From contig JANFAH010000016.1 of assembly GCA_024663395.1 (NCBI GenBank), forward strand, positions 1,360,827-1,424,826: a stretch of 64,000 bases of DNA, given 5' to 3'. Made by a program: the position numbers and the translations under genes. Shown here piece after piece: positions 999 through 57,069 of this stretch; the stretch's first letter is position 1; each line of letters starts with the position of its first letter. The notes under the pieces were generated by a model. That model made no database searches. It was not told the DNA's origin and saw nothing but the letters and a program-made list of their open reading frames with translations. Source of the stretch: Pisolithus tinctorius. Taxonomy: Eukaryota; Basidiomycota; Agaricomycetes; Boletales; Pisolithaceae.

Positions 999-1170
999 AT
1001 GCATACCTAAGCTTCATCAATAAATAGTTTGTGCCCAGAGAAAAGATATGTATGAGCGATCTACATTCAATGTTACCCTAAGGAACTCTGTTTTATGGTG
1101 ACCTGCAATGCCTTTGACCTCCTGCTGGGTCAAGCATTATGATTGATTAAACTAACAAGAGAATGCACAT
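999..1170. other. Spacer between KDZ fragment and minisatellite
   Basis: A short AT-richer stretch with no supported gene. It could hold the 3' UTR of the KDZ fragment; no terminal inverted repeat was recognised. Confidence 0.4.
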
Positions 1171-1176
1171 AGTGCA

Positions 1177-1765
1177 TTGGAAAATCCTCAGCATTGCTGG
1201 GAAAATCCCCAGAGTGAGTGGGAGAATCCCCAGCATTGCCTGGAGAATCCCCAGGTCAGAACTTGGAGAATCCCCAGTATAGCTTGGAGAATCCTCAGAG
1301 TGGGTGGGAGAATGCCCAGAGCAGGTTGGAGAATCCCCAAGACAGAACTTGGATAATCCCCAGTATACCATGGAGACTCCCCAGAGTGGGTGGGAGAGTC
1401 CCCAGAGCAGGTTGAAGAATCCCAAGCATTGCCTGGAGAATCCCCAGCAGTGCTTGGGGAATCCCCAGGTCATAGCTTGGAGAATCCCCAGAGTCAGTTG
1501 GAGAATCCCCAGCATTGCCTGGAGAATCCCCAGAGTGGGTTGGAGAATCCCCAGCATTGCCTGGAGAATCCCCAGAGTGGGTTGGAGAATCCACAGAGTG
1601 GGTGGGAGAATCCCCAGCATTGCCTGGAGAATCCCCAGCAGTGCTTGGAGAATCCCCAGAGTGGGTTGCAGAAACCCCAGCAGTGCTTGGGGAATCCCCA
1701 GGACATAGCTTGGAGAATCCCCAGAGTTGGTGGGAAAATCCCCAGCATTGCTAGGAGAGCCCCTA
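1177..1765. repeat. 21-bp minisatellite (about 28 units)
   Basis: Tandem units of 21 bp built on the core GGAGAATCCCCAG followed by variable 8-mers, chiefly CATTGCCT or AGTGGGTT. Two unit types alternate in part (for example 1501-1600). Because 21 is divisible by 3, all six frames stay open and give false heptad-repeat proteins of 60-240 residues; none should be annotated. The core sequence is shared with the 43-bp minisatellite downstream, which suggests a common origin. Confidence 0.9.
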
Positions 1766-2187
1766 GAGACAGGAGTTGGCTGGGAAATTCCAAGCATTGC
1801 CTGGAGGATCTGCTGCATCCCTGTGGATGCCCAGAGTGGGTGGGAAAATTCCAATGACACTTGGACAATCTTTGACTTGTATGCAATGGCCAGGACTGGA
1901 GATCACTGAAGGCTTGGGAAGCATGGTGAAAGTATATGTCTGCTGTGCCTGGGCAATCACCATCACCAAGTATATTCTACTCCCTCCATCAGATGTCACC
2001 AGTCTTTCCTCAGTGGTCTATGGCCATACTTTTTCACATATTCATATTGTATATAGTGCTCAAATCAGATTCCATGGAAATAGGTACTTGGCATGATACA
2101 CACTCCTGTCAGCAACATGGAGACTCCAAATCATTTTGATTGATCCTTCATGCTGTGATGGTGGTCTATTTGAACTGGAGGTTCCCA
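1766..2187. other. Spacer between the two minisatellites
   Basis: About 420 bp of non-repetitive sequence separating the arrays. No coding or RNA feature is supported. Confidence 0.4.
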
Positions 2188-3437
2188 TGATCATCTTGGA
2201 ATAGGTCTGTTTGGGCTGGATGCCCTGGGAACAGGTCCATTCAGGCTGGGGAAACTCCCAGGATGCACTGGGAACAGGTCTATTTAGGCTGGAGAATCCC
2301 CCAGGATGCCCAGGGAACAGGTCCATTTAGGCTGGGGAATCCCCCAGGATGCCCAGAGAACAGGTCCATTTAGGCTGGAGAATCCCCCAGGATGCCCTGG
2401 GAACAGGTCCATTTAGGCTGGGGAATCCCCCAGGATGCACTGGGAACAGGTCTATTTAGGCTGGAGAATCCCCCAGGATGCCCAGGGAACAGGTCCATTT
2501 AGGCTGGGGAATCCCCCAGCATGCCCAGAGAACAGGTCCATTTAGGCTGGAGAATCCCCCAGCATGCCCAGGGAACAGGTCCATTTAGGCTGGGGAATCC
2601 CCCAGAATATCCAGGGAACAGGTCCATTTAGGCTGGGGAATCCCCCAGGATGCACTGGGAACAGGTCTATTTAGGCTGGAGAATCCCCCAGGATGCCCAG
2701 GGAACAGGTCCATTTAGGCTGGGGAATCCCCCAGGATGCCCAGAGAACAGGTCCATTTAGGCTGGAGAATCCCCCAGGATGCCCAGGGAACAGGTCCATT
2801 TAGGCTGAGGAATCCCCCAGGATGCACTGGGAACAGGTCTATTTAGGCTGGAGAATCCCCCAGGATGCCCAGGGAACAGGTCCATTTAGGCTGGGGAATC
2901 CCCCAGGATGCCCAGAGAACAGGTCCATTTAGGCTGGAGAATCCCCCAGGATGCCCAGGGAACAGGTCCATTTAGGCTGGGGAATCCCCCAGGATGCACT
3001 GGGAACAGGTCTATTTAGGCTGGAGAATCCCCCAGGATGCCCAGGGAACAGGTCCATTTAGGCTGGGGAATCCCCCAGCATGCCCAGAGAACAGGTCCAT
3101 TTAGGCTAGGGAATCCCCCATGATGTCCAGGGAACAGGTCCATTTAGGCTGGGGAATCCCCCAGGATGCACTGGGAACAGGTCTATTTAGGCTGGAGATT
3201 CCCCCAGGATGCACTGGGAACAGGTCTATTTAGGCTGGAGAATCCCCCAGGATGCCCAGGGAACAGGTCCATTTAGGCTGGAGAATCCCCCAGGATGTCC
3301 AGGGAACAGGTCCATTTAGGCTGGAGAATCCCCCAGGATGCACTGGGAACAGGTCCATTTAGGCTGGGGAATCCCCCAGGATGCACTGGGAACAGGTCCA
3401 TTTAGGCTGGAGAATCCCCCAGGATACCCAGGAAATA
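2188..3437. repeat. 43-bp minisatellite (about 29 units) with hairpin core
   Basis: The period is exactly 43 bp, measured from successive AGGTCC/AGGTCT at 2362, 2405 and 2448. The unit is GGAACAGGTCCATTTAGGCT plus CTGGGGAATCCCCCAG plus GATGCCCA or GATGCACT. CTGGGG-AATC-CCCCAG is a 6-bp-stem, 4-nt-loop hairpin; units with CTGGAG have one stem mismatch. Unit variants (CCCAGG, CACTGG, CCCAGA before GAACAGG) recur in blocks, suggesting higher-order repeats of about 5 units. No ORF here is meaningful. Confidence 0.92.
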
Positions 3438-4052
3438 GGTCTATTAACTCACTGGGGAAAGCCCCATTTGGACCCCAGGCACTCTGTTATAGATGTAATA
3501 ATCCTGGAGAAAGTCCATGTCTGACACCTTGCTCTGGAGAATCTCCAGGGCCTGGCAAATCTCCAGCAGTCACTGGGAATACCCAGGTGGTCAACACCTA
3601 TTAGGTGGATACATCTATAAGAATATATGAACCTAATAGGTCCCCTGGGGGGGGTGACTGAAGTGATTGAACATACTTGCTGTATATATCACAAGATGAG
3701 AATGCAAACAGAATTTTTTTGAAGTACCTAGAACAACAATTAATCCACCAAAAATGGCATGGTCGAAGACTTACTTGGAGATCATGCTGTTTGACCTTTG
3801 AAAATGTTCACCTACATGTCTGATGGACAAACCAGTGACAGAGGTATATAGAAAGATTGTGAGTTACTCTTCAAGCATGACATGTTTGGAAGGACCGATT
3901 CCATGCTGTTGGAGCTCCTGCAATAAGATGTCGAATACATGCTTGTGAACTGCAAGTTCTGTACAAATTTGCTCAGGATGGCTGTTCAACAATTTGGCTA
4001 CCCACCCACTCCCAGTCAGGATCAATGTGTGGTATGGGATCAGGTCAGCATG
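3438..4052. other. Unannotated stretch between minisatellite and R1 repeat
   Basis: Contains degenerate remnants of the minisatellite core to about 3600, then unique-looking sequence. A 74-codon minus-strand ORF at 3864-4088 lacks any recognised motif and overlaps the repeat edge, so it is not called. Confidence 0.4.
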
Positions 4053-4437
4053 CTGTGAGTCAAAGTGTGGAAAGGTGGTGAAAACCAACCAAAACCAACA
4101 CCAAAGACAAATATGAGTGAGTGGTGGTTTACCTCTGCAGAACCTGGAGGGCAGAGAAACCTAAAGTGGGGGAGACTTCAAGTGGAGGTGCTCCTGGCAC
4201 AAGTCATCAATGAGTTATGCAGGAGAGGATGAATGAATGCTGATTGAGAAGGGGATGCTGAACAGAGTGAAGGTATTCAGCTGAAAGTACTCTGGTGTGA
4301 TGATCTTTTGGATGTGCTCCTGGTGCAAGTCATTGACAAGTTACACAGGAGTAGATGGATGACTAAGCAGGTGTGCTGACAAAGCACAGATGATACTTCA
4401 GATAATGAATGAAGGTAGATAGACCCTTGATGGAGCC
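4053..4437 (+). repeat. Dispersed repeat R1, copy 1, left half
   Basis: Starts at TGTGAGTCAAAGTGTGG and matches 23732-24110 closely. It is interrupted at 4437 by the gypsy-type element and resumes at 11938-11943. The rejoined copy is about 765 bp, the same length as the uninterrupted copy at 23732-24497. R1 begins TG and ends near CA, but no target duplication was found, so its class is unknown. Confidence 0.8.
4433..4437. repeat. Target-site duplication GAGCC (left); partner 11938-11942
   Basis: GAGCC immediately precedes the 5' LTR and immediately follows the 3' LTR. Removing the element and one GAGCC restores R1 sequence that aligns through the junction with the intact R1 copy near 24110. 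Confidence 0.95.
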
Positions 4438-4947
4438 TGTCATAGTCGTGCCTTGACTCCGGCCAGACTCAGCCTCGCGCTCACTCAGTCCGGCCTCGGC
4501 CTCGCCAATCCCATATCTCCAGTTGGTCTAGTGTGGTAGACACTGCAAAGCAGTGTCTGTCATTTCGGTTAAGTCCTGTCCCTGGTCCTGTCCCAGTCTC
4601 CGTTGCCTTAGTCATATCTTACTAATACCTGTCTTACCAATCCTCTTAGCAATCCTTGCGAGACTGGCATTACCAGTCTCTGTACTATAGCTACTCTAGT
4701 ATATAAGCTCGTAGATACTCGGCCTGTAGACCTCAGTCTGAAATCAACAAAGTTAACCCTGATAACCCCATCTCAGCCTCAGACTCGGACTGAGACCCAC
4801 ACAAGGGAATAGCACTGTATCTTCGGTTGCTAAGTCCAATCAGTCCAACTACCTGTATCCTCGACTCCTCTCCTGATCCCAATCCCTCGGCCTCATGCCC
4901 ACTTCGGTCTCCGGTCCAGTCCCAACCCGGACATCCCGTACTTGACA
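4438..4947 (+). repeat. 5' LTR of gypsy-type element (510 bp)
   Basis: Starts TGTCATAGTCGTGCC and ends CCGTACTTGACA. It contains a 9-bp-stem hairpin at 4538-4558 with loop AAA and a TATA box TATATAAG at 4700-4707. The predicted transcript start, about 30 nt downstream, falls on the self-primer sequence at 4735. The 3' LTR (525 bp) is about 15 bp longer because a CCTGTCC-type motif is repeated once more. Confidence 0.93.
4700..4744 (+). promoter_or_regulatory. LTR TATA box and predicted 5' end of element RNA with self-primer
   Basis: TATATAAG at 4700-4707 places transcription start near 4731-4736. The first bases there, AGTCTGAAAT (4735-4744), are the exact reverse complement of ATTTCAGACT at 4950-4959, two bases after the LTR end. 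This is the arrangement known for Tf1, where the RNA 5' end primes its own minus strand. The start site itself is inferred, not seen. Confidence 0.65.
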
Positions 4948-4949
4948 GT

Positions 4950-4959
4950 ATTTCAGACT
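4950..4959 (+). promoter_or_regulatory. Primer-binding site complementary to the element's own RNA 5' end
   Basis: ATTTCAGACT sits 2 nt after the 5' LTR, the normal PBS position. It pairs over 10 nt with 4735-4744 in the LTR R region. I recognised no tRNA 3'-end complement here. Confidence 0.65.
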
Positions 4960-4985
4960 CTCCACTTGTGTGGGTCTAATACATC

Positions 4986-6374
4986 ATGGCAACCAAGACT
5001 CGCTTCCAACCTCCCCATGGCCATTCTGCCACCAATCCCAACTCTGCCTCAGCCAGTGGGGCTTGCTGCGAAACAGCACTAGCTGCTTTGGGCACCACTA
5101 GGCGCTCTCCAGGTCCCATCAGTCCTTTCAGGGGCTTCTCAGCCCACACATCTAACACCCCCACCCCATGTTGTCCCACTGCTCCCATCCCCGAGGGTGA
5201 CCCCGGCGATGATGGGCCAGGTAACAATGATGACAACAACCCAGATGATGATGAGCCTGGTGATAATGGTCCTGGTGATGATAACCTGGAAGATAATGAT
5301 CTGGAAGACGATCTGGACTTCCCAGACCCGGACACTGAACCTGCAGTCATGGTCTTCGACAGTCTCGCAAAGGCCATCAAGCTGTTGGCTCACAATGCCC
5401 GTACTAGTCCTGAGTCCTCAAGTAGGACCAAGCTACACGAGCCCAATACCTTTGATGGCACTGACCCAAAGAAACTTCGCGCCTTCTTCATCCAGTGTGA
5501 ACTTAACTTCCAAGACCATCCCCGGGCTTTTAGGACCGACCACACCAAGGTCATCTTTGCCCAATCATACCTCAAGGGTATGGCTCTTGAGTGGTTCGAG
5601 CCGGACTTGCTTGGGCTCGATGACCCCGACAATTGGCCTCTCTGGATGGACTCCTGGAGGGAGTTTGTCCTGGAGCTACAAACCACCTTCGGCCCCCACA
5701 ACCCGGTCACTGATGCTGAGAGTCAGCTCGACCATTTACACATGAAGGATAGCCAGTGCATTAACAAGTACATAGTTGACTTTAATCAGCTTGCTTCACA
5801 AGTCCAAGGCTATGGAGATGGTGTGCTGCACCATCATTTCTATTCCGGCCTCCCAGACTGAATCAAGGATGAGGTCTGTCGGGTTGGCAAACCCCGGACA
5901 CTTCACGAGCTCCGCCACCTCGCCCAGGAGATAGATGCGCACTATTGGGAGCGCAAGGAAGAAGTCCAGCAGGCGAGTAAACACCAGGGCTTGTCCAACT
6001 CCAGCAACAATAAGTCTGGCAGTTCCAGCAATAACAGTCAGCCCAGGACCGGTCAGGAGAAAGCCAAGACCGGCAACAACAACAACAACAACAACTCCGG
6101 ATCTTCTCCCAAGCCGGCTTCATCAAAGCCGGGAAATAGTAATAACAGCAATTCGTCCAAGCCCGAGCCTAGCAAACTCGGCAAAGATGGAAAGCTTACC
6201 CCCGAAGAATGCAAGCGTCGCATAGACGGAAACCTCTGCATGTTCTGCAGAGGGTCTGGTCACTTCGCTGACAAATGCCCTGAGAAAGCCGCAAAGGCCA
6301 AGGCTCGTGCTGCGACCACCACTGAGGCCATGCTGGCCTCAGGCTTGGGTTCTACCCCCAAGACAAAAAAATAG
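4986..6374 (+). pseudogene. gag: gag of gypsy-type element, one in-frame TGA
   Basis: One frame runs from ATG 4986 to TAG 6372-6374 with a single internal TGA at 5859-5861, where relatives would have arginine (LPD-stop-IKDE). N-terminal residues 1-120 are low complexity with an Asp/Asn/Pro-rich repeat. A retrotransposon-gag capsid-like domain follows (about residues 145-330, with FIQCELNFQDHP and YIVDFNQLA). A Ser/Asn-rich linker and one CCHC zinc knuckle CMFCRGSGHFADKC (about 6236-6278) close the protein. It would coat the element RNA in virus-like particles. Protease follows in another frame. Confidence 0.88.
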
Positions 6375-6376
6375 GT

Positions 6377-9300
6377 AGCAGCTCCTGGGACTCCACACAA
6401 TCCAGGAGCTGCATTGACTCCGGTTGTGCAAACTTGGAGGCTCGTCTCAACACATCCGCTCTTTCCAGTCCAAATTCTTTAACCCCCTATGTCACATTAG
6501 AAAACCCAGATTTACCTCGGCTTCATACTTTAGTGGACTCTGGTTCCACTCACTGTTTTATAGACAATCACTTTGCTAATCAACAATCTTTTACCCCATA
6601 CTCAGTCTCCCTGATCTGACTCTGGCTCTTTGATGGAACGTCCACCTTCACCATAACCCAAGCAGTAGATGTCAATATCTGCTTCGTGTCTGGCGATGTC
6701 ACCCCGGTAACCCTGTATCTAGCCCCATTGGATTCTGAGTGTAGAATAGTCCTTGGACATGACTGGCTCACCCGCTACAATCCATTGATTGATTGGGTAT
6801 TGGGCAGTCTAACATTCTGGACTCCTGCACAAGGAATGCCAACCCCATCGACACCCTCTGTAAGTCCAGTTTCCACTGGCCTTCCTGACACCAGTCTTAG
6901 TGACCAACCCGGCCTTGCGCCATCTGTACTGGTCCCTGACTCCCTGGCTTGCACCCCTCTGAAAGCCCCTCTTGTTTCCCTCATCAATGCAGCCGCCTTT
7001 GTGCATGCCTGCAAACTTGAAGGGTCTGTCCAGTTCCAACTTCAGCTTCCCCTCCTCCGGCCTTACCCAATGTCCCAGAAGAGTATCACGACTTCACTGA
7101 TGTATTCAGCAAGGCCAAGGCCTCGGCACTCCCACCACACCAGGAGTATGATCTGAAGATAGAGCTCGAAGAAGGAATAACCCTGCCTCTTGGCACAATC
7201 TACTTGCTGTCTCTGGTTGAGCTCCAAGCTCTCCGGACTTTCATCGATGAGAACCTCACTACCCGATTCATTCAGCCTACTTCCTCCCCATATGCTGCAC
7301 CAGTCCTCTTTGTCAAAAAGAAGGATGGCTCCCTCCAGCTTTGCATAGACTTCTGCAGCCTGAATAAAATCACTAAGAAGGACCGATACCCGCTACCGCT
7401 CATCTCCGACCTATTAGATTCACCAAGCCAAGCCAAGATCTACACCAAGATTGATCTTCAGCATGCCTACCATCTCGTCTGGATTGCCCCGGGCAATGAA
7501 TGGAAGACCGCATTCCGGACTTGGTATGGATCCTACGAGTGGTTAGTGATGCCTTTTGGCCTCACCAATGCCCCAGCCGCCTTCCAGCACTTCATCAACA
7601 CTATCTTCGCAGATATGTTAGATGTCTGTGTGGTCATCTACCTAGATGACATCTTGATCTACTCTGGAGATAAGGAGTCTCACAAGCAGCATGTCTGAGA
7701 GGTCCTCCACCAGCTTTGGCTTCATGGCCTTTATGCAAAGCCGGAGAAATGTGAGTTTCACTTGGACTTGGTCGAGTACCTTGGGTTCCACCTCTCCCCT
7801 GCCAGCCTCACGATGTCCAAGGAAAAGGTCCAGACCATCTGCGATTGGCCTGAGCCTTGCAAGGTCAAGGACATTCAGTCTTTCCTTGGATTCGCCAACT
7901 TCTACTGCCGGTTTATCTTTAATTACTCAGACATCATCGTACTGCTGACTCAGCTTACCCGCAAGGGGGCTCCTTGGAACTTCTCTGAGGAGTGCCACTG
8001 ATCATTCAACAACCTCAAGGCTGCCTTCACCACTGTGCCAGTCTTAACTCACTTCATCCCCGGGGTCCCTATCACCATTGAGACCGATGCATCAGACTAT
8101 GCCATCGCCGGCATTCTGTCTATTACTTGTGGCGATGGCCAGATTCATCCAGTCGCATTCTACTCCCAGACTCTGATGGCCCTGGAATTGAATTATGACA
8201 CCCATGACAAGGAATTGCTTGCTATTTTTGAAGCATTCCAGACCTGGTGCCATTACCTTGAGGGCTCGGCCTCACCAGTCGACGTTGTTACTGACCACAA
8301 AAATCTTGAGTACTTCTCTACCTCTAAAGTACTCACCTGCTGCCAAGCTCGCTGGTCTGAGTTCCTGTCTCAGTTCAATATGATCATTCAATTCAGGCCC
8401 AGTAAGCTCGGGGCTAAGCCCAATGCCCTAACTAGATGATGGGACATCTACCCCAAAGAGGGGGATAGTAGCTATGCCCAAGTGAACCTGCAGAACCTGA
8501 GACTGGTCTTCACCCAAGAGCAACTAGCGGTCTCCCTTTGTGCAACCTACCTAGAGTACCCGGTCTTACGAGCAGTTGCACTAATGGATATAGAAAAACT
8601 TCATAATGATATCCTGACTGCACTGCCGGACGACCCAGTCTCACAAATCCGCCTGTCCGACATGTCTGATCCCCGGTGGTCAGTAGATGATACCAGCTTC
8701 CTTCGGCTTGATGGAAGGATCTATGTGCTGGACTCAAACAACCTTTGCCTTAGGGTCTTGCACCTCAAGCATGACCACCCTCTGTCCGGCCACTTCGGCC
8801 AAAACTGCACACTAGAGCTCATACGGCGTGAGTATACCTGGCCTGGCCTCAGGACCTTCATCAAGGACTATGTCCAGTCTTGCACGGCCTGTGCTCGGGC
8901 TAAGGTTCCCTGCCACCGGCCTTATGGCCTCCTCAAGCAACTCCTGGTGCTGGAGAAGCCGTGGAACTCCATCTCTATGGATTTCATCGAGCAGCTTCCG
9001 GCCTCAACCAGCTTCACGGCCATCCTCGTAGTAGTTGACCGGCTTTCCAAGCAGGCCATATTCATCCCCACCCATGACACCATAACAGCCCCAGAACTTG
9101 CCAAACTGTTCCTACTCCATGTCTTTTCGAAGCATGGAGTACCAGCCCATGTAACCTCAGACCAAGGCTCGGAGTTCATCTCCCACTTCTTCCAGTCACT
9201 TGGTAAGGCCTTAGATATGCACTTACATTTCACCTCAGGCTACCACCCTGAAGGTGATGGCCAGACCGAAAGGACCAACCAGACCCTAGAACAATACCTC

Positions 9301-12988: not shown

Positions 12989-13257
12989 TCTTAAGAGGAG
13001 GTCAAAATTTAAGACTGTAAAGAAGGTCTCAGGCTTCTGTGGTAAGAAGACTGAATATTAACAAGCTAACCTGTAAAGAAGGTCTATAGTAGTACATCAG
13101 TAAGGTAGCTGTAGGGTTAATATAGTAAACATACCTCAGGCTTCTGTGGTAAGAAGACTGAGGTGCATGAGGAAAAACTAATTGCCTAAGTGCGAAGAAT
13201 TATTATGTAAGCTTGTACGCTGTAAGCAAATAAACATAGGGGACACATGTTCCAACA
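12989..13257 (-). repeat. Copia-type LTR (269 bp), antisense
   Basis: Read on the minus strand it begins TGTTGGAACATGTGTCCCC and ends CCTCTTAAGA, like the two LTRs of the complete copia element at 29373 and 34212. This copy carries an extra internal duplication of CAGTCTTCTTACCACAGAAG, making it the longest of the three. Confidence 0.88.
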
Positions 13258-13594
13258 CACCCCCTCAGTGTAGCAAGTCTTTAGAAAATAATTCCCATAC
13301 CAAGAGAAAAGCGTTCATGCTTCTTGCGTGACAGTCCCTTGGTGAGAACATCGGCAATCTGCTTGTTTGTAGAAATGTACTTGACATCCACTTCTCCATC
13401 TTCAACCTTCTCATGAATAAAATGATGACGAATAGCTATGTGCTTCGTGCAATCGTGGAACATTGCATTGCTCATCAGGGCTATTGCAGACTGGTTGTCA
13501 ACTAGGAGGGAAGTGGGCTGTGCGGTCGTATCCATATCTAGTTCACGTAGTAGCATTCACAGCCAAAGTATCTCTTTTGCAGCTGCCAAGACTG
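13258..13594 (-). pseudogene. 3' end of antisense copia pol (RNase H), first fragment
   Basis: The minus-strand reading contains LLVDNQSAIAL and KHIAIRHHFI and ends LGMGIIF-stop at 13281, the same C-terminus as the full copia copy at 34188. The copia sequence stops at 13594 in the middle of the AAAKEILWL block and continues at 23657, because the Plavaka-type transposon inserted here. The upstream part of pol is missing. Confidence 0.9.
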
Positions 13595-13608
13595 CATCAG
13601 CAAAACAC
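13595..13608 (+). repeat. Left terminal inverted repeat; partner 23641-23654
   Basis: CATCAGCAAAACAC pairs with the reverse complement of 23641-23654 at 12 of 14 positions. Its outer edge coincides exactly with the copia breakpoint. Confidence 0.75.
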
Positions 13609-13970
13609 AAAAATGTGTTAGTAACTCATAGCTGCCCATAGTATTTGCACAATTCCATATTAGTCCAAAGCAATGTCAAGCATCCTAGCAACTCATAGTG
13701 CCAGAGTAGACTACACCAGACTTGCCCAAAGTAGTGGCCAGCATCCAAGCAACTCATAGCACCTGAGTAAGCCACACCAGTGATACCAGCAATCCAAAGA
13801 CCAATAGCTACCTAGCATACAAGGGAACAGACACACCTAGCTAATACAGCAACCTAGATTCCCACTGTAGTAGAGAACTTGGTAGATCTAACTTCATTCC
13901 TATGCATGAAGGCAACAACACACAAACATAACATACAGCATTTTTCGATAAGTACAGGAAAGTAATGGAT
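13609..13970. other. Left subterminal region of the Plavaka-type element
   Basis: No gene. It holds several imperfect copies of GCAACTCATAG and of a CCTGAGTAAGCCACACCAG-like motif (about 13620-13790), resembling subterminal transposase-binding arrays of CACTA-like elements. Confidence 0.5.
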
Positions 13971-13974
13971 AGTA

Positions 13975-14648
13975 CTAGTCTAGACGAATGGCGAGTATTC
14001 GACTACCGGCATGCTCAATAACTGTGCCTATCAAGGTCCGGCATAAGTAAAATAGCGGCCCAAAAGAAAAGAGCGAGCATAGCATACCATTGGACTTGAG
14101 AGATGGCTGCAGCTCACTGGCCAGAACACTAATGTCGAAAATAGGCTCCCCCAGTCCGCATTTTTTCATTGCTACACGTAATGAGCTGACCTCCATATCT
14201 TTTTCGTGGACTCTTGCCTTGCTGCTGCCCGCCTTGTACTTGTACAACTTGGCCATCGATTCATATTTGTGGGCGATGCATGCGGCCAGAGCTTGTTCCG
14301 CACGAAAGACTTTGCGTTGTGCGCGTGCTACATCGAGAAGGAGAAGTGCCTCGTGATTCAGCTGACTCTTTGATTCATGCTGCAGATTGAAAACCTATCA
14401 ATGAGCGGTTATTAGGAAGGAAAAAAAGAACTTACTGTGTGAGTGGACGACTCCAATATTCCATACATCTCAGCTAAGACACCAGTTGTCTCTGCTTTGA
14501 CCTCAGCACTGCTAGAGGGGCTGTTGCAGGAAGAGAACCCGCCATCACGAGGCTTATGGGGCAGTCCTTTGCTGCCCGGGCGACGCTCAACCGTGGGCAT
14601 GGTCGACCCAGCATGAAGGTGTGTGTGATTGAGGTTATAAACGGACAT
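13975..14648 (-). CDS. Three-exon gene of unknown function inside the Plavaka-type element
   Basis: Exons are 14648-14436, 14394-14088 and 14027-13975. The introns (41 and 60 bp) have GTAAGT/TAG and GTATGC/TAG ends, and the frame closes with TAG after 190 codons. The N-terminus is basic and Ser-rich. The middle (about residues 75-150) is Ala/Leu/Lys-rich and looks helical (LLLLDVARAQRKVFRAEQAL, then YESMAKLYKYKAG), suggesting a coiled coil. It faces the transposase gene across a 137-bp gap, so the two probably share a divergent promoter. No stop or frameshift was seen. I do not recognise the family; it may assist transposition or simply be cargo. Confidence 0.6.
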
Positions 14649-14785
14649 GAGTGACTATGTTCACGAATGGGATGTGATTGGGTAGTATATGAGAAATACA
14701 CTCCGTAGCGATCCAAACAACGTCCTGATTCGCACTGAAGTGATAATCACGTAACATGGAACTGGCCTGCCTGACCATCTAGAGT
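14649..14785. promoter_or_regulatory. Putative divergent promoter between coiled-coil-like gene and transposase
   Basis: The 137-bp gap between two head-to-head start codons (14648 minus, 14786 plus) must contain both 5' UTRs and promoters. No specific motif was identified. Confidence 0.35.
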
Positions 14786-17700
14786 ATGCCCCGCTGTCCA
14801 AGTTGCGGTAAAGGTGGCTTCCAGAGTCACAGTGCTGTCGCAATGCACATGAGCCAGCCGTCCTCTGGGTGCAATACCTGGGTCAATAACTTAGTCCGCC
14901 TTCATGAGTCTCTCCAACCTTTGAGCTTGAACATTCGTAACTCTCAACACCCAACACACTTAGAAGATGTCCCGATGAGCACCGACCCCAATGACTATGC
15001 AACTCACGATTACCTGGATTTTGTTCATATGGCATTTGACATGTGGGGGCCAACCACAGATGACTTCGAGGGCGCAGCTAAAACGTTTGGACTTGGCCCA
15101 ACATTTATGGACAAATTTAACAGCGACCAGTTCAGCAACCTACAGGCATCAAATCTGTACTACCCCTTCAACTCCCACAATGAATGGGAGCTGGCATCGT
15201 GGTTACTTCGTTCAGGCCTGAGCATGAGAGCTATAGACTCTTTCTTGTCATTGTCAATCGTAAGCCTGTCCCTATTCTCTCCGAAGATCATTATTGACGT
15301 GCGCCAGATACAGCTACTAAATATTTCCTTTCGTACAGCCAGAGCACTTCGTGGGCTGGCTGAGTTACTCCCTGGCAGGCCACACTGGCGCTCAATGGAG
15401 ATTACTCCTTCGCAGCCAACCAAACACCCTGTGCACTTGTACTGGCGCAATCCCCTGGAATGCATTGCGTGGCTCCTCAACCACCCTTTGTTCTCTGACC
15501 AGCTCGATTTTGTTCCGAGGCATGTGTACAAAACGCCCGAGAAGCTTTGTAGGGTGTATACAGAGTGGATGACTGCTGATGATGCTTGGTGTATGCAGGT
15601 ATGTTTCCACTGCGAGTTATAGATCCTTTTATTCAATTGACATACCCCAGTCACAGCTTCTGAGCAGAGCGACTCTTCTTGGCACAATACTTTCTTCAGA
15701 CAAGACGAATATTACTACTTTATGTGGTGGCAGAGTTGCTCATCCACTTCTCGTCAGCCTAGCAAATATCAAGATGTCCACGCACCTAAAATTGTCATCC
15801 AACTCATTTATGCTTGCTGCTCTCCTCCCCGTCCCCAAGTTCATGCACAAGAACAAGCGTATGCGCGGCCTCCTCGAAGATAGGCTCATTCATGAATGCC
15901 TGGATATCGTACTTGAACCCGTCAAGCAAGCTGCCAAACTCGGCATTATGTTACCGGATTCTCTGGGGCACATGTGGTACTGTTTCACACCAATCGTGGG
16001 TTATATCGCCAACACTCCCGAGGCTGCCATGCTCGCAGCTGTTGGGGGAAAGACTTCCCCAATCACCATGGCGATGTACAAACAGTTCGGAGACCCATTC
16101 CAACATGAGCCACGAACCGTGTCCACCACTTTGGCTCAGCTCGCAGCAGTGAAATCGAAGGTCCACCCTACAAACATCCAAGTCTTCTTTCGCAAAGCAC
16201 AGCACTTTCGCCTCAGCGGAGTTAGTGACCCATTTTGGAGGGACATTCCGCTTTCTTGTCCAAGCACTTTTATAACTCCGGAGCCCCTTCACCACCTGCA
16301 CAAGGAATTTTGGGACCACGACATGAAGTGGTGCATAAATGCGGTTGGTGAAGCCAAAATCGACTTTTGCTTCTCAGTTTTACAGCCTACTGCGGGGTTC
16401 TGTCACTTTAAAGGTGGTGTTGCTAAGCTGAAGCAGGTGACTGGACGCGTGCACCGTGATGTCCAATGTTACATCATCAGTGTTATCGCTGGAGCAGCCC
16501 CTCCCAAAATTATTACTGCTATTCGTGTGCTCATGGACTTCCAATACCGAGTCCAAGCTTACTGCATTGATGACGATGATCTTTGTATAATATCTTCTGC
16601 ACTGGACAAGTTTCACACACACAAGCAGTCGATACTCGATCACGGTGCATGACGCGGTAAGGGAAACAAGCCCATTGACAATTGGCACATCCCCAAGTTA
16701 GAACTCATGCAGAGCATCGTACCAAGTGTGAAGCATGTCGGGGTCACCATCCAATGGACTGCCAATGTAACTGAACATGCCCATGTATCAGAGATCAAGA
16801 CGCCCGCATCAGCTAGCAATAACAATAACTACGATCCTCAAATTTGCCAGTACCTCGATCGCACTGAAAAATGTAGGACGTTTGAACTCGCGACATCATT
16901 ATATGAATCGAAGACTCACTCCCATGGTCGTGCGGAAGAAAAGTCCTTAGAGGTTGAGGATGGGAGTTCTGATGATGGCGACAGTGAGATCAGTGATCGT
17001 GAGGAGGCGAATCTAGTTTCCAAGACGCCAGGTCCCATGCAGCCTGTCACCAATTACTTCGCCATCTCTGTGCACCTCAGGACTCAGGATCCAGACTCCA
17101 TTCCCTTCCCCTTGCGTAGTTTTATCACAGACGGTACGGCGATCAACCTTTCCTACGACCCACCCTTGCAATGCATTAGTGTTGATGGTGCTGCCGAGAA
17201 GTTTGGACTACTTGACCTCTGAGCCACCCTTGTCAATTTTCTAAATCGTGAGAAGGTGTATGGACCAAGCTCTGTGCACACTATAAGTGGGCAACGTCGG
17301 GGATCAAGCTCTTCAACCCTGCCTTTTACCGATCTGCAGGTTTGGTACAAGATGCGGCTGCAGAACACGGCGATACACAATATCACGGACATCCTCCCTG
17401 CCCAGACTCTCTTCTGTTCTCCACCTTGCAAGACCTGGACCCTTGGCCACTATGATGCAGCTATCATCAACGTGGACCCCCGTTTCAAATGGCCAGAGAG
17501 TGGCCTGAAAGGTTCGTGGTCCACACTACTTTTCCGTGTCACTCACAAGAGTATCTTAGGTCATGTTGTTGGCAAGCTCTGTCTCCTGATGCGCCCTTTT
17601 GGCAAGAGGGGGGTAAGATGGTCGTGGACAGACCGTTTTTTGGTCTACGTACAACGTTTTGACATAGCAGCTGAAGATGCGACACACCTACATATCCTTA

Positions 17701-17918
17701 GGCGCGCAAAGAGAGCAAATGGCCAACGTCTTGGCGATGTCATCCCACTCAGTCAGGTCCGGGCGTTCGCACATCTCATACCTCGCTTCGGGCAAACTGC
17801 AGATAATCGATTGACGGCATACAACTCCTTCGAGCATTCTTCCGAATTCTATCTCAACAAATACTTCAACAAAAATACATACTTTGCCCTAAGTCGTTCG
17901 GACTCTCCTCCCATCTAG
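14786..17918 (+). pseudogene. Plavaka transposase, two in-frame TGA codons
   Basis: Exons are 14786-15259, 15314-15598 and 15651-17918, with introns of 54 and 52 bp (GTAAGC..ACAG, GTATGT..CCAG). The N-terminus has a C2H2-like finger (CPSCGKGGFQSHSAVAMHM). The core has blocks I know from Plavaka-family proteins: HPVHLYWRNPLECI, LLGTILSSDKTNI, GGKTSPITMAMYKQFGDPF, HEPRTVSTTLAQLA, PEPLHHLHKEFWDHD and VTEHAHVSEIK. TGA codons interrupt at 16650-16652 and 17220-17222, the second where Arg fits. A Ser/Asp/Glu-rich linker lies near 16930-17010. Plavaka belongs to the CMC (CACTA-like) DNA transposons. The lesions imply this copy cannot make a full-length enzyme unless the stops are read through. Confidence 0.85.
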
Positions 17919-18132
17919 TCAACATACATGTTACCTTACCGTATACCAGAGTTTATTACATGTTAATGTTGAAATGCATCAGTATTTTGAGTGGTGGCAC
18001 CATTTTCGAACGTGTGACCCTACTTGTCAACAACCCTCAGAAATGTCCAAAGACTCGAACAAAAACAGATATTGAACAATAGATGGTACCTACAAGCTGA
18101 TCGGTTCTCTCCCCCTGCCCAAACACGGCCGC

Positions 18133-20531
18133 ATGGTTCATGTTATGGACAAGTTCACTGCTTCAGAACTTGAGGGCACCATCATCTGTGAACCACGGAT
18201 ACAAGTTAGCTCTCCTCAGAGCCTCGGTTATGTTACAAATATTATCTTCAAGTCCTTCAGAGATACATTCACCTCCATAGCTCCCAGGTCCCTGATTGTC
18301 CCTCTGAAAACAATTCCCACATGTGTCCATAGCTATTCCGCCTCCTTCAATCAGGGTGGCTTGTCAGAGGACAGCCTGGTCAGCCTATATGATGACGATA
18401 GAAAGCGCTGGAACTGGGAGCTTCGTCCACCCCCAGGCTCTGATTCACCTCCCGAGCAACCCGGGCCACTTGCCTCAGAGCTGCCAGTAGAATCGGAAAA
18501 GCTCTGCTTTGAAAAGCAAGTTGCTCTGTTTCTCAATGCTATCGGAACCGCCGCCAAATCCACGATGCCCAGTCTATCCAGCAAACCCCAGCGTCAATGG
18601 ATGGCGGACTAGAGCAGAACCAGCTTGCAAGGTTCTACAGGTTATTCCCGAAAGCCCGACCTCATCCTTGTCGATGACACCCCAGTATCCCTCGACAAGA
18701 TTACATGGTTAAGTCCCAAAGTCATCACCAAGTACTCAAAGGAGTCTTTCAAGCCAGCATCCCGCCTTGGGAAGACGATGGACACTAAGGCATATCTAAC
18801 CCTTGTCGACCAGCCCTGGAGGTGCTATGTCCTTGGATTATCAATTACTGATAGCGAACTTCTTCGACTTCACTTTTACGACCACTCTGGTGGTGCAATC
18901 TCACCCTCTATCAATATCCACACTGACGCAGAAGTCTTCATATACATTGTATGTGCTGTTGCGTTCAGCTCCCGCTCAACCCTTGGCTTCGATTCGACCA
19001 TTGAGATATCCCCCCATCCTGCACACAGCCGCAAATGCACAGCACTTGCGATACCTCTCTCCCCTTTCCCCTCTCCTACAACGCCTTCTCCTCACTTGGA
19101 GTTGGGCATCCTCCCCAGTGCAAACTCACTCCCGACTCCCACATCACCTGAACACATCCCAGCAATCGGGAGGATCCAAGTAAACAAGACCTTCTACGAG
19201 GTGCTCGATGTATTATTCTCGAGCACAGGCTTTCTAGGAAGGGGTACTGTTTGTTACCTCGCACGCTACAATGGGGAATACTATGTCATCAAGGATTATT
19301 GGGTGGAGGAGTCGGAGCAGAGGACAGCCCTGCATGAAGTCAACATGATGAAGCTGGTCCAGGACATCGACGGAGTTCCCAAGTTGCAACACTACTGGGT
19401 CGTTGAGGTCAAGCTGGGCATTGTCGATAAAACTGAACGATATCGTGATGAGAAGTGGCGATTGTGCATGAAGTCTCGGAGAACTCACATGCGATTGGCT
19501 ATGAAGCCATGTGCAAGGCCAATGGTAATGTTCAAGACAAAAAAGGAACTCGTTTCATGCATCCGAGATATTTTACAAAGTACGTATCCTCTTCCACTTG
19601 TAAAATCAATACTAATTGCTTTAACAGTCCAACAGCAGGCTCTCGAGAGGGGTGTCCTCCATCGAGACTGTAGCATCAACAATACGATGATCGAGGACTT
19701 TGCAAATGGGTCGCACGGCTTTCTCCTCGACTGGGAATTTGCTGTACAGGTCACGTTACAGGGGGAATATGACTTGGGCGGCACAGTAAGTACTATGCAA
19801 AACATTTTGGAACTCGAAGCTGATAGTACGCAAAGGGGACAGTCCCCTTCCTTTCAGTGAATATCCTTTGCCAACTCAAGGAAGCCATCACTAAAAGTGG
19901 AAAGACTAATGTCCCATTGATCCGGAAAAGCGCCTCTCTCACCCACATATTCATCGATCACCCTACTACTATACACCATACATTTGTGGACGATATCGAA
20001 TCCCTGTTCTACATTTTCATCTGGATCCTCATCCTTTATGATGGGCCACTTGGCCACGAGCGTCAAGATATCAGCCATGAAAAGACACTTCTTGGCTTGT
20101 GGAGTGAAAAGGCAGCCGAAGATCTCGAAATCGCCAGATGCGCCAAATTCACATTCCTTAATGACCCATCTGAATCGAGGCTGGATTCCGAGGTCTCGCA
20201 ATATTTTCAAGATCTAATCCCTCTGGCTAACGAGTGGCACGTATTGTTTGGGCGGTCCCTGCTGAGCAGAACTGCAGTGCAGTTCTCTGACATTATCTCC
20301 CTCTTTGATTGTTTCTTGGCCAGCATGCCATATGAGAAACCACCGGAGATGACGAATGCATTCCAGCAGATCATCGCCCAGCACAAAGCGCTTAATTCAA
20401 GCATGCGTCCGAGTCAGGAGAACGATATGGATGTTATGTCTTCGGCAATTATGTCTTCTAAACGCCTTTGTGAAGAGGTAAGGAGCATGGATAACCCTCC
20501 TATACCCAATAAATGCTTCAAAGGCATGTAG
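18133..20531 (+). pseudogene. FunK1-family protein kinase, one TAG near residue 160
   Basis: Exons are 18133-19579, 19628-19785 and 19836-20531, with introns of 48 and 50 bp. Kinase features in order: a glycine-loop-like FLGRGTVCYLARY, VIKD as the lysine strand, catalytic loop GVLHRDCSINNTM (HRD with the Asn four residues on) and LLDWEFA at the DFG position, followed by TVPFLSVNIL after the second intron. HRDCS..N and DWE in place of DFG are typical of FunK1, a kinase family expanded in mushroom-forming fungi. A TAG at 18610-18612 interrupts the N-terminal region; the kinase core downstream is open. The start at 18133 is the first ATG in frame, and upstream exons are possible. It lies wholly between the transposon ends. 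Confidence 0.8.
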
Positions 20532-20745
20532 TCTTAGCATGAATTTTATGTTTAGTTCATGTTCTGTACGTTACATGTAAAGTGTTTCAATTCATTTGCA
20601 GCAGGTAACTGTCTCAGCGCGTTGTTTCGTTTTACGTCTCGCGATGAACCTGTCAATGTTTATATGGATTCACAAGATGTCATTTCGTTGTGGTCCCCAG
20701 GCTTCCATCTTATACTGTTCTCTGCTTAACTGCTTGTACCTTCAG

Positions 20746-23250
20746 ATGTCCACCCAATCTGGAACAATCCCACCGAAAAAGAAGGATAGCAAAAAAGCCA
20801 AACGACGACCAGAGGCTGACAGAAGCACTCGACCCACAAAAAACAAGCATCTAGGAAGCCCACCTGTCGATCTCGAAGAGTCTCAGTCTGTTGCCACAGC
20901 AGGACTCCGTCGTAGCGGAAGGGCAGGGGTGGGTTCAGGTGGAAGGGCCGAGCAATTGGAGCGGATTGGTACTGCCCTTGAAGGCCGAGCTACACAGCTG
21001 CGAAAGTCGACAGATCTCCCCAACAATTCTGTTGTAAATCCTCTTGCACCTCCACCCACTCGGCAGAAAAAGGGTGGGGGCCGCAGTGCCAGCCAGAATG
21101 CAAAACCGAAGGTCAGTTCTAGTTATTTGCAAATATCAAGCTAACTGCTTGCAAAGTCCAATGTCGCCCCACCACCCTACGCGCCTCCCATTGTGAATGG
21201 TCCTAGCCCAGCTGATACGCCTCTGGTGAGTGTCTTTTCATACTGATATACAATGTTCATTTCAGAATCCCGTCCCTCAGTCTTCAACAGCAGTAGCAAC
21301 ACCTGTCTTCCATCAGTGTCCCACAGACTCCCATTGCTTTGGTTTCAGTCTTCTGGCTCAACAGCCAGGTCATATCGTGCCTCCCAGGATGGAACCTGAC
21401 CTTCAAGTGCTCAATAATCCTTATATCGCCGCAATTCGGGGAGACCAAGTTCCCAGTAATACATCTCGTCCGCCAACACCCCAGCCCAACTACCAGTCTC
21501 GGTTTATCCCCCACCAGCCACCTGCTACTGTCCCCGACTCTTGTATCGACCCCTCCCTTGATAGCTCGCTCTCATCGAGACAAACTTCGGCAACCACTGA
21601 CATTCGCCACAAGAGTTCAGAGAAGCTGTCATCAGAGGGCTCCTCAGAAGAGGAGTCGGAGTCCTCGAGTAATAACCCATGGGACGCAGAGGCTGGCGAG
21701 GTCTCTGGCGATGAGTCCAACAAAGATGAGGACGATGCATTTGGATGGGGTGCAACGAATCTTAGGCAATCAACTCATCCTGGTACGCGTCAGAGGTTAT
21801 TATGGTATTGGCTCAACGTTCTTTGTTAGGCTTCTCCCAAGAAACGATGACAAGCAATCCTATTCGCCACAATTCCTTACCCCCTGACCACGAGTTTCAG
21901 TACTCATGCGACGAGGATGACGATGCGGCTCTGCGAAGCTTACAATCCAAGGACAAGGCTCAGCCAGAGGTACAAAAATGCCATTCCTGCTAGCTTTATT
22001 TATTCAGATTGTTATTTTAGGGTTCCCAACATGGCACTGTCGTCGACGTTCTTGAACGCCACCATCGCACTAACGGCTGTCCTTCTGTTCCTGATCGTGA
22101 TCTTCTGACCCTTGCGCACGACTCAGTCAATGAAGTATCTCAGCGCGCCAGAGCCCCTTGTAACTCCAAGAAAGCTAAGGATAAGGGCCCATTGCCTTCA
22201 CAACTGAGATTTTACAAGGCAGTATGGAAGGACTGTCTCGAAGACGCTAAGCGAGAATGCAGGGCTGCACATGCACTTTCTAACCCGTTCCCATCGAAAT
22301 CTCACGACCTCAACCTCTCCATAACAGAGGCACTCGTCACTGTCATCGTTGAGTGGAATCAACGCAGTGTGCAATTTGAAGATGGTGAGTAACAATATTT
22401 TTGCTTTATACGTGTCTCATTATCCTAACTTTATAGGTTACTGGCCTGACCACAAGCAAGATATGGCGTGCCTCGTAAGTAGTCCCGTCTTTTGGTTACA
22501 GCTACTGACATACCACCAGTAGCTCCTTGGTGATATATCTACCTGGCGTTCGGAATTGAAGTCAGTTACGCTGGCAACCACGCCATCCGTGTTCAACCTT
22601 ATCCCTCCTTCTGATGTTGCACCACGGGTTCATGTACAATGGATAGAGACCACTGCCACAAAGCTCCTTGACAACTCGCTTTTCCTGCGAGATGGTTTCG
22701 ACGAGAATGTATGTTCATGCGGTTCGTTATCTGCACTACTAACGGATTGGTTTATCAGGGAAAAACCAGGAATTTCGCTCACCCCACCCTCAAGGAAGCT
22801 GTCATACAATTCTACTATACCGGGACCTATCAAATCGCAGATAAGCGTCCTGAGTCCTTCAACAATTCAGTTCCCCTTTCCTGTCTGGCTCTTGTTGCAG
22901 CTGCGGTGAGTTATCTTACACCCCGAGTCGCTGCAACTCGAACTTTTCTCGCAGTATCATTGTGTGTTGGACAGATTTGCGAAGAATGGCACAGGAAAGA
23001 CAATGCCTCAATTCTCCAGCAAGGCTTACAATTCCATTTTCCATGGCATGATGAAGGTGCTGAACAACATCCTTCGTAATCCCTATCACAGCGCGAGGTT
23101 GCGCGATCAGCTTTCTCAGTGGGCAAAGGAAGGATGGTAAGTACTGGGACGGCCGACGTGCTCGCACTGACTCCTCGTATCAGGGCTGCACTGCAAGAGG
23201 TTGATTCGAATGTAGAGAGGTACCAGCACATTCAGGCAGTCCTTGATTGA
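20746..23250 (+). CDS. DUF6532-like multi-exon gene inside the Plavaka-type element
   Basis: Supported exons begin 20746-21111, 21157-21225, 21266-21782 and 21830 onward, then further short exons to TGA 23248-23250. All junctions I checked have GT/AG ends and keep frame. The N-terminus is basic and Ser/Arg-rich (nuclear-type), with repeated RxxQLERIG/RATQLRK motifs. The middle is Pro-rich and then strongly acidic. The C-terminal 280 residues contain LPSQLRFYKAVWKDCLEDAK, LLGDISTWRSELK, NFAHPTLKEAVIQFYYTG and NPYHSARLRDQL, the pattern I associate with the fungal DUF6532 domain. No stop or frameshift was seen. Function unknown; it may be an accessory DNA-binding protein of the transposon. Confidence 0.7.
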
Positions 23251-23640
23251 TTTCATAATACCTAGTCCTGTCGTACCTGTCATTACACATAGTATGCAAT
23301 TGATGCCAATGCTCCTGTTCCTGTCATACCTGCTGTGAACTGTTCCTAGTTGTGGAGTGATCACATGTTTGCAAAGTAAACATTGAGATGGGGAGTACTG
23401 GACAACACCCCAAGGAGAATACAGTCTGGCCAGTTTTGTACAGTGATATTTAAGCATGAAAGTTCCATAGCAATCCATAGTAAGTAAGATACTGGACAAA
23501 GTTCCATGACAATGTGACCATTCCATAGTAACAGGCAACTAGCCATAGCAAAAAGTGTTGTTGGGTGCATCTGTCCAGCCTGGACCTAGCTAGGGGACTC
23601 TGTGTATTATGGAGCACTGTGGAGAGCTCCACAGCTCAAA
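23251..23640. other. Right subterminal region of the Plavaka-type element
   Basis: No gene. Repeated short motifs such as TTCCATAG and CAATCCATAG occur between 23455 and 23545, echoing the subterminal array at the left end. Confidence 0.5.
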
Positions 23641-23654
23641 GTGATTTACTGATG
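23641..23654 (-). repeat. Right terminal inverted repeat
   Basis: GTGATTTACTGATG; its reverse complement matches the left terminus at 12 of 14 bases. It is followed by the TG duplication and the continuing copia sequence. Confidence 0.75.
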
Positions 23655-23656
23655 TG

Positions 23657-23731
23657 CCATGTACTCGGCTTCCATGCTAGACAAAGCAATGGAGGTCTGT
23701 TTTTTGGATGACCAGCTAACTGCTCCACCAG
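23657..23731 (-). pseudogene. Antisense copia RNase H, second fragment
   Basis: The minus-strand reading GGAVSWSSKKQTSIALSSME then AEYMA is the sequence immediately upstream of the piece ending at 13594. It joins R1 copy 2 at about 23732, so the rest of this copia copy was lost or replaced there. Confidence 0.9.
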
Positions 23732-32600: not shown

Positions 32601-34188
32601 CCAGAAAGGGAAGAAGTTACCACATACCAAACAAACACAATCTGTGATGATGAGCCTATGATGTTCACAGAGGCAATGCATCGTACTGATGCTGACCACT
32701 GGTATGCAGCAATGGCCAATGAATTAGCAATGTTTCATGCTATAGGATTGTATGAGGAGGTACCACACCCACCTGACAGAAAGATTATAGATTTGAAATG
32801 GGTCTACAAGATAAAGCAAGGCCCTACAGGCGATGTTGATAAGTACAAAGCCCAACTCATCACAAAGGGACTCACACAGGTCCATGGAATTGATTATATG
32901 GAGACATTTGCACCTGTAGCTAAGTTCTCTACCATCAGAACCCTACTCACCCTTGCTGCTATGTTTGATCTGGAGATCCACCAGATGGATGTAAAGTCCA
33001 CCTTTCTAAATGGCAAACTTGAGGAGGAAATATACCTCCACCCTCCTGGCTTCCGAGACTCAAGTGATGTTGTTTGGCACCTCTATCATGCACTCTACGG
33101 ACTGAAACAGGCTCCTAAAGCCTGGTACAATCGACTACGAGAAGTCTTTGAATCTCTTGGATTCACATGCAGTGATGCTGACCACAGTCTTTTCTACAAA
33201 GACAAAAATGGGATTTTAATTATAGTTGCTGTCTATGTCGACAACAAACTAATCCTCTCGAAGAGCTGCAAGGCCATTGACTGCCTCAAAGTCCAGCTAT
33301 CAGCTGAGTACGACCTCTCTGACTTAGGCAAGGCTCAGTGGATCCTCAGTATGGAGATTATTAGTACGAGATTGCAACAAGGGAACCATAGAATTGTCTC
33401 AGTGTTGCTATATAGAGCTCATTCTCGAGTGCATGGGCATGCAGGATGGCCGTACAGTGTCCACACCCATCGAGCAGAACTTAAAATTAGAGAAACTCGA
33501 TACTCCTGCCTATGACCTACATGCGTATCAAAGTGCTCTTGGAGCATTGATGTATGCTATGCTGGCTACCCAGCCAGATCTTGCATTCACTGTGGGTGTG
33601 CTTAGCAGGCATGCAGCTACCCCTGGTGACCAACACTGGACCAAGCTCAAACAAGTTTACAGATACCTTCGAAAAACTGTTGATGTGTGTTTACAGTACA
33701 CGAGAGACTTTGCAAGTTCTCTTGTAGGCTATGCTGATGCTGACTGGGCTGCAGATGTAAATGACTGCTGTTCTGTAACTGGCTATGTCTTTACTCTGTC
33801 TGGTGGAGCAGTTAGCTGGTCATCCAAGAAACAGACCTCTGTTGCTTTGTCTAGCATGGAAGCTGAGTACATGGCAGTCTCAGCAGCTGCAAAAGAAATA
33901 CTTTGGCTGCGAATGCTACTATGTGAACTAGATATGGATATGACCACACAGCCCACTTCCCTCCTAGTTGACAACCAGTCTGCAATAGCCCTGACAAGCA
34001 ATGCAATGTTCCACAATCGCACAAAGCACATAGCTATTCGTCATTATTTTATTTGCAAGAAGGTTGAAGATGGAGAAGTGGATGTCAAGTACATTTCTAT
34101 GAACGAGCAGATCACCAATGTTCTCACCAAGGGACTGTCATGCGAGAAGCATGAATGCTTTTCTCTTGGTATGGGAATTATTTTCTAA
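29655..34188 (+). pseudogene. gag-pol: copia gag-pol polyprotein, six TGA codons and one frameshift
   Basis: ATG 29655 opens a frame that continues to about 33390, where the frame shifts, and ends at TAA 34186-34188. Domains: a UBN2-type Gag (WTKLSERYEGKGKQS), an atypical zinc knuckle (CIYAPCGKTGHMEDEC), protease with NSSAS where DSGAS is expected, and integrase with GHAN..CKACH and PQENGIAEW. Reverse transcriptase follows, with VYVDN where YVDD is expected, and then RNase H (GYADADWAAD, ALSSMEAEYMAVS). TGA stops are at 29769, 29853, 30333, 30978, 31512 and 32013. The PR and RT changes are G-to-A transitions. All catalytic modules except RNase H are therefore damaged. Confidence 0.92.
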
Positions 34189-34211
34189 AGACTTGCTACA
34201 CTGAGGGGGTG

Positions 34212-34372
34212 TGTTGGAACATGTGTCCCCTATGTTTATTTGCTTACAGCATACAAGCTTACATAATAATTCTTCGCACTTAGGCAATTAGTTTTTCCTC
34301 ATGCACCTCAGTCTTCTTACCACAGAAGCCTGAGACCTTCTTTACAGTCTTAATTTCGACCTCCTCTTAAGA
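34212..34372 (+). repeat. 3' LTR of copia element (shortened)
   Basis: Preceded by a purine tract CTGAGGGGGTG. It lacks the GTATGTTTAC...CATAG block present in the 5' LTR, joined at GCCTGAG/ACCTTC. Confidence 0.92.
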
Positions 34373-57039: not shown

Positions 57040-57069
57040 CTTCCCAAGGGCCATTTCCAGGTTCAACTT

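Follow-up and report, generated by a model that had tools for sequence, protein, structure and literature searches.

How do a FunK1 kinase gene and a DUF6532 gene come to lie beside a Plavaka-type transposase gene in the fungus Pisolithus tinctorius, and do they move with it? We examined a 64,000-nucleotide stretch of a 92.5-Mb, 221-contig assembly (GCA_024663395.1, contig JANFAH010000016.1; C16:1360827-1424826), hereafter the window, whose positions are given without a contig name. We put at about 90% the probability that positions 13595-23654 are a Plavaka-domain transposon that holds the transposase, FunK1, DUF6532 and a small gene and has probably spread as one cut-and-paste unit.

Element boundaries and copies in the genome

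The element (10,060 bp, plus strand) is bounded by terminal inverted repeats visible in the sequence, CATCAGCAAAACAC at 13595-13608 on the plus strand and CATCAGTAAATCAC at 23641-23654 as read on the minus strand, so that it begins and ends with CATCAG...CTGATG, as do its copies. Comparison of ends and duplications places a TG target duplication at 13593-13594 and 23655-23656, and flank matching identifies an uninterrupted relative of the target at 33800-34334 on the minus strand. In that second copy the flanks are contiguous: the left flank (13135-13595) matches 34334-33874 with 94.1% identity, the right flank (23655-23731) matches 33876-33800 with 94.8%, and the two rejoin exactly. An earlier reading of the window by eye (the original prediction) had claimed the inverted termini, the duplication and the empty site, and all three are borne out.

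The termini are conserved between copies, as that reading expected. A genome-wide search that tolerated no more than two mismatches found 25 occurrences of the 23-base left end, 20 of them exact, and 19 of the 25-base right end, 16 of them exact; the reversed-end control gave 0. Left and right ends matched by position form 13 pairs, the other ends falling outside this set, and seven of these pairs are full-length copies of 10,051-10,067 bp: the window element itself on C16, C1:5284931-5274872, C6:2175139-2165080, C22:921517-931567, C24:724235-714176, C53:174977-185043 and C53:199536-189480. Each of the seven has a 2-bp duplication and carries Plavaka, FunK1 and DUF6532 matches inside both ends, on one strand and in constant order; the predicted shared gene order is thus confirmed for the three genes that Pfam recognizes. 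Over all pairs, the 2-bp duplication is present in 12 of 13 and longer in none (chance 1 in 16 per pair). Constructs joining the flanks of a copy match through the junction elsewhere in five of five cases (92-100% identity), one of them at 100% over 298 bases. Because seven copies share ends, order and the presence of 2-bp duplications, and because empty sites exist, FunK1 and DUF6532 can be placed inside one mobile unit, as had been proposed, and sequence comparison strongly supports reading that unit as mobile.

Five of the 13 pairs exceed full length. Three of them hold Plavaka, FunK1 and DUF6532 matches (C1:485232-467577, C41:352871-340313 and C95:78206-99791), one is without a DUF6532 match (C1:1087946-1100021) and one has a DUF6532 match with neither FunK1 nor Plavaka (C10:1467536-1454216). 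Copies whose ends exclude FunK1 or DUF6532 had been named as evidence against a cargo role, and the end pairs do not refute that role: the 4,245-bp pair on C12 has lost FunK1 through an internal deletion with 4 bases common at the junction, and the C10 pair is unexplained. A further left end, at C2:1309797-1309819, is oriented opposite to the neighbouring copy C2:1299888-1307526.

Gene content

Gene models were placed from sequence with predicted splice sites. The transposase gene (14786-17918, plus strand; exons 14786-15598 and 15651-17918) encodes 1,026 amino acids in the spliced model of the open C6 copy and matches the Plavaka domain PF18759 and DUF6830 (PF20722); the PF18759 match on a piece of the C6 protein has an E value of 3.7e-65 (220.7 bits vs a cut-off of 26.3), and the window pieces also score above the cut-off. 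FunK1 follows at 18043-20531 on the plus strand (exons 18043-19579, 19628-19785 and 19827-20531), with 799 amino acids in the spliced C6 model and a PF17667 match on the window piece (E 1e-41). The C6 protein keeps VIKD, LHRD and DWE, which we take to be the kinase motifs (lysine, HRD and the later D), as does a Boletus edulis relative (P0007). The DUF6532 gene (20746-23250, plus strand) has ten exons and 691 codons and matches PF20149 with 36.3 bits vs a cut-off of 24. Its predicted structure is weak (mean predicted local distance difference test score 52), and the top match in a profile search against solved structures, RPC7 of RNA polymerase III (E 0.0014), is taken as acidic low-complexity similarity. 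At the left of the element lies the small divergent gene (13975-14600, minus strand; exons 14436-14600, 14088-14394 and 13975-14027), whose 174-residue product is identical to annotated protein P0084 (174/174 residues) and gave no match in a Pfam search.

In the C6 copy the transposase, FunK1 and DUF6532 frames are all open. The window transposase is broken by TGA at codons 605 and 795 and the window DUF6532 frame is free of stops, both as originally described; FunK1 had been credited with a single TAG and in fact has two stops, one TGA and one TAG, at codons 11 and 190.

CpG-free ends

Comparison of three complete copies (the window copy, C6 and C53) revealed a zone without any CpG at each end in all three, spanning 351 bp on the left (13595-13945) and 365 bp on the right (23290-23654). 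The ratio of observed to expected CpG in the interior is 0.96 for both C6 and C53 but 0.70 for the window copy, and none of 1,972 overlapping 280-bp interior windows, drawn from six elements of five Plavaka families, is CpG-less. By raw count, with no chance control, CATAG occurs four times on the plus strand of each terminal zone, and the ends hold three copies of AACTCATA where the interior has none. Among the four other families that we mapped (F2-F5, described below), F2 has CpG-free ends of 280 bp (L043 2135-2414) and 283 bp (L043 7918-8200) around a CpG-normal interior. The ends of F3, F4 and F5 carry 12-16 CpG per 280 bp, and we rejected CpG-free ends as a trait of all Plavaka elements.

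We treat these ends as an added lead, a testable idea for how a DNA transposon might stay mobilizable amid methylation-type decay. Interior CpG would be methylated and decay to TpG or CpA; the ends, unmethylatable at CpG, would remain usable, and an intact copy could then supply the proteins to mobilize a decayed one. Evenly balanced against a selected shield is the explanation that the ends are old non-coding DNA from which CpG was lost by drift. Long terminal repeat-like and satellite DNA in the window likewise contains long CpG-free runs, some longer than the element's zones, and drift therefore stays a serious rival; the CpG-bearing ends of F3, F4 and F5, which nonetheless occur in several copies, point the same way. 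Drift fits less well with the non-coding interior of C6, where CpG is near or above expectation (11 vs 8.6 and 13 vs 9.4), and with F2, which shows the same CpG boundary at both ends.

Elsewhere in the window, positions 1057-3764 form a 2.7-kb CpG-free stretch with tandem-like repeats at 2218-3466.

FunK1 and DUF6532 loci relative to Plavaka

Matches across the genome were merged into loci (FunK1, 68 into 47; DUF6532, 55 into 47; Plavaka, 143 into 113); Plavaka scoring covered 123 of 474 candidates, so that locus and proximity counts are lower bounds. At least 14 of the 47 FunK1 loci lie within 4 kb of Plavaka, all on the same strand and 2.3-2.6 kb apart, a spacing and strand as in the window family, and at least 15 lie within 8 kb. 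For DUF6532 the corresponding numbers are at least 22, 24 and 33 of 47 loci within 4, 6 and 8 kb, where about 1-2% would be expected by a uniform estimate that ignores repeat clustering. Removal of the nine FunK1-adjacent loci leaves at least 24 of 38 within 8 kb.

DUF6532 is enclosed by mapped ends in five Plavaka families, the window family and F2-F5. F2 (L043 2135-8200, 6,066 bp) has a TA duplication and an uninterrupted target in many copies, for example C4:4001392-4003604; F3 (L044 2597-8914) also has TA, with an uninterrupted target at C89:146274-149970; F4 (L057, C16:892001-902000; 1672-7926) has CTT and an uninterrupted site at C37:405560-409316 that is probably the other haplotype; and F5 (L059 2132-8338) has TA and ends backed by other copies. 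A further copy on C39 (L058) has no set ends and stands outside the mapped families. Plavaka and DUF6532 are head to head in all four of F2-F5, and no FunK1 profile hit was found inside these four families. Because it lies inside five mapped families and within 8 kb of Plavaka at 33 or more of 47 loci, DUF6532 accompanies Plavaka recurrently and is not special cargo, and FunK1 is the window family's addition. The original description of DUF6532 as cargo holds insofar as the gene is inside the unit; its link to Plavaka is broader than was claimed. The DUF6532 domain can thus be tied to a definite setting, that of a gene accompanying Plavaka transposases.

Transposition had also been proposed as a simple mechanism for the FunK1 and DUF6532 expansions of mushroom-forming fungi. 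With FunK1 beside a transposase at only 14 of 47 loci, this can be upheld only in part: transposition likely explains a share of the FunK1 expansion. A second dispersed FunK1 group is represented by L045 (C78:220501-228500), in which a shared unit of about 2.7 kb (2366-5125) has matches on C55, C45, C63, C11, C19, C1 and C8 (at least eight places); its match table, beyond which the flanks were not analysed, shows no common transposon ends. In the available text of two studies, PF17667-type FunK1 kinases undergo lineage-specific expansions that are discussed with multicellularity, duplication and accessory chromosomes and not with transposon placement, and their copy number is linked to fungal multicellularity (PMC3203195, PMC6001611). 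If many FunK1 copies are transposon genes, such counts require a transposon filter.

Relatives in other species

We compared protein records and gene models of other species, with element ends and genomic context outside view. Six models of P. orientalis were matched by both FunK1 and DUF6532 queries (P0005, P0006, P0011, P0013, P0014 and P0020), P0003 has transposase sequence at its start (by eye) and P0010 combines DUF6830 and FunK1 by Pfam. These multi-gene models are probably neighbours fused by annotation and are therefore evidence of adjacency. Relatives of the small gene all come from Pisolithus (33 of 33), and six of its records have tags that differ by at most three numbers from that of a FunK1 or DUF6532 record on a contig of equal length. 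DUF6830 and FunK1 also share one model in Suillus hirtellus (P0041). The Boletus edulis FunK1 (P0007) is 52% identical over 99% of its length with the kinase motifs retained, and a DUF6532 relative from the same species is 60% identical over the aligned part of the query, with PF20149 present. The end of Pisolithus marmoratus P0032 resembles the DUF6532 start at an E value of 0.64 and was not used.

Constraint and decay in the window copy

CpG-transition rates at synonymous and nonsynonymous positions are 0.186 and 0.176 for DUF6532, 0.146 and 0.191 for FunK1, and 0.181 and 0.197 for the transposase. Stops expected from CGA codons vs those observed are 1.1 vs 0, 1.67 vs 2 and 1.1 vs 2, respectively, with one of the two FunK1 stops having arisen outside CGA. 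By these rates, no constraint is apparent on the window copy after its insertion. The original prediction had left open whether the contrast between intact and broken genes reflects chance or selection; chance under CpG decay fits, and selection preserving the DUF6532 frame is rejected by its similar rates and by an expectation of only 1.1 stops where none is seen.

That none of the window copy's genes shows visible constraint is one reason to consider FunK1 and DUF6532 host genes caught by chance, passengers useless to the element; the small share of FunK1 loci that adjoin Plavaka, and the failure to find FunK1 in F2-F5, agree with it. We regard this as possible and do not favour it, given the recurrence of DUF6532 within and near Plavaka elements and the Boletus edulis FunK1, which has kept its kinase motifs over nearly its whole length, albeit in a context outside view.

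Of the changes private to the window copy, 224 of 230 are C to T or G to A, as a process akin to repeat-induced point mutation (RIP) could also produce. Between C6 and the window copy, however, 211 of 1,152 CpG positions have changed (18.3%), against 16 of 3,900 other cytosines (CpA, 12 of 1,401 or 0.9%; CpT, 2 of 1,286; CpC, 2 of 1,213), and TCG shows no preference (0.154 vs 0.168-0.250 in other contexts). With CpA barely affected, a RIP-like origin is improbable; the divergence of the copies appears to be mainly CpG decay, for which slow loss of methylated C is the closest fit.

Comparison with known systems

From its sequence we class the element among transposons with the Plavaka domain (PF18759), and its ends are of the PlavakaB type. 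This filing follows Pfam domain and ends because the C(2)C motif given for Plavaka transposases in the accessible part of Kojima 2025 (PMC12730594) is missing at the aligned place. CPLC of F2 (L043) aligns with SPIT in the window family (L041), F4 (L057) and F5 (L059) and with SPTS in the C39 copy (L058), in an alignment without F3. As to the H(3-4)H motif and the catalytic D/E residues also given for Plavaka, one H and a later DH, with spacing and roles unassigned, are invariant across these five transposases.

As excerpted from the same paper, PlavakaB has CATCA..TGATG ends, 2-3-bp duplications and a Plavaka-type transposase, which the window element resembles in its CATCAG..CTGATG ends, 2-bp duplication and PF18759 transposase; it differs in that its extra genes are FunK1 and DUF6532. 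The closest precedents for extra genes in that text are TET/JBP in some Plavaka elements and an alpha-kinase gene in IS3EU elements of rust fungi (PMC12730594). The latter are likewise DNA transposons bearing a kinase gene, unlike the window element in transposase superfamily and kinase family. No TET/JBP match was found in the scanned frames of the window element.

The original view that this cargo arrangement is not a standard description agrees with the literature searched, which lay outside subscription journals and Repbase: we found no description of FunK1 or DUF6532 cargo in Plavaka and, among the papers that one search listed, none combining Plavaka and FunK1. DUF6532 appears in one paper, listed among domains with Plavaka and Pkinase_fungal. 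Transposable elements are reported close to kinase genes in Coccidioides (PMC5872316, in excerpt), and the seen parts of the Pisolithus genome paper give a transposable element content of up to 60% and do not mention Plavaka (PMC10066745).

TNPA, the second protein of CACTA/EnSpm elements, binds subterminal repeats, and a comparable role for DUF6532 is suggested by analogy as a candidate only. The CACTA/EnSpm elements of plants, as covered in the available sections of PMC4219821, resemble the window element in pairing terminal repeats with a transposase and a second protein (here a candidate), and differ in their CACTA ends and 3-bp duplication. Methylation of their subterminal repeats matters for mobility, and in a soybean CACTA element higher methylation was accompanied by what appears to be a loss of transposase binding to these repeats (PMC4219821), the result from which the proposed methylation shield derives.

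Weighing the mobile unit

In the mechanism that we propose, the transposase, possibly together with the DUF6532 protein, would bind the terminal zones, excise the element and insert it at a 2-bp target. FunK1 may have been captured by an ancestor of the family and retained as an element gene. A wider combination, in which DUF6532 is a second mobility protein, FunK1 an element-serving kinase that inflates host counts and the CpG-free ends a passive methylation shield, as an alternative to TET/JBP, we consider doubtful as a whole.

Several points weigh against the element as a transposon spread in one piece by this mechanism. Movement is deduced from the sequence of a single assembly, and methylation, binding and kinase activity are likewise predicted from sequence; the empty sites are mostly paralogous repeats rather than proven alleles. 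Among the 13 end pairs, C10:1467536-1454216 has DUF6532 as the sole match inside its ends and C1:485232-467577 is without a duplication. To these we add the missing C(2)C motif, the placement of which is inferred, the CpG-bearing ends of three of the five families and the CpG-free runs in other DNA of the window. Separate elements inserted side by side could mimic a unit, and nested insertions do occur (the five over-length pairs), but for the window family this is very improbable and already refuted by the seven full-length copies, which differ little in length, occupy different sites and have common ends and order, and by the exact rejoining of the window site in its empty copy.

Other features of the window

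A 2.6-kb duplicate is present at 49330-51946 and 54404-57041, in the same orientation and with 76% identity, and a weaker match joins the sequences upstream of it (47861-49261 vs 52830-54266).

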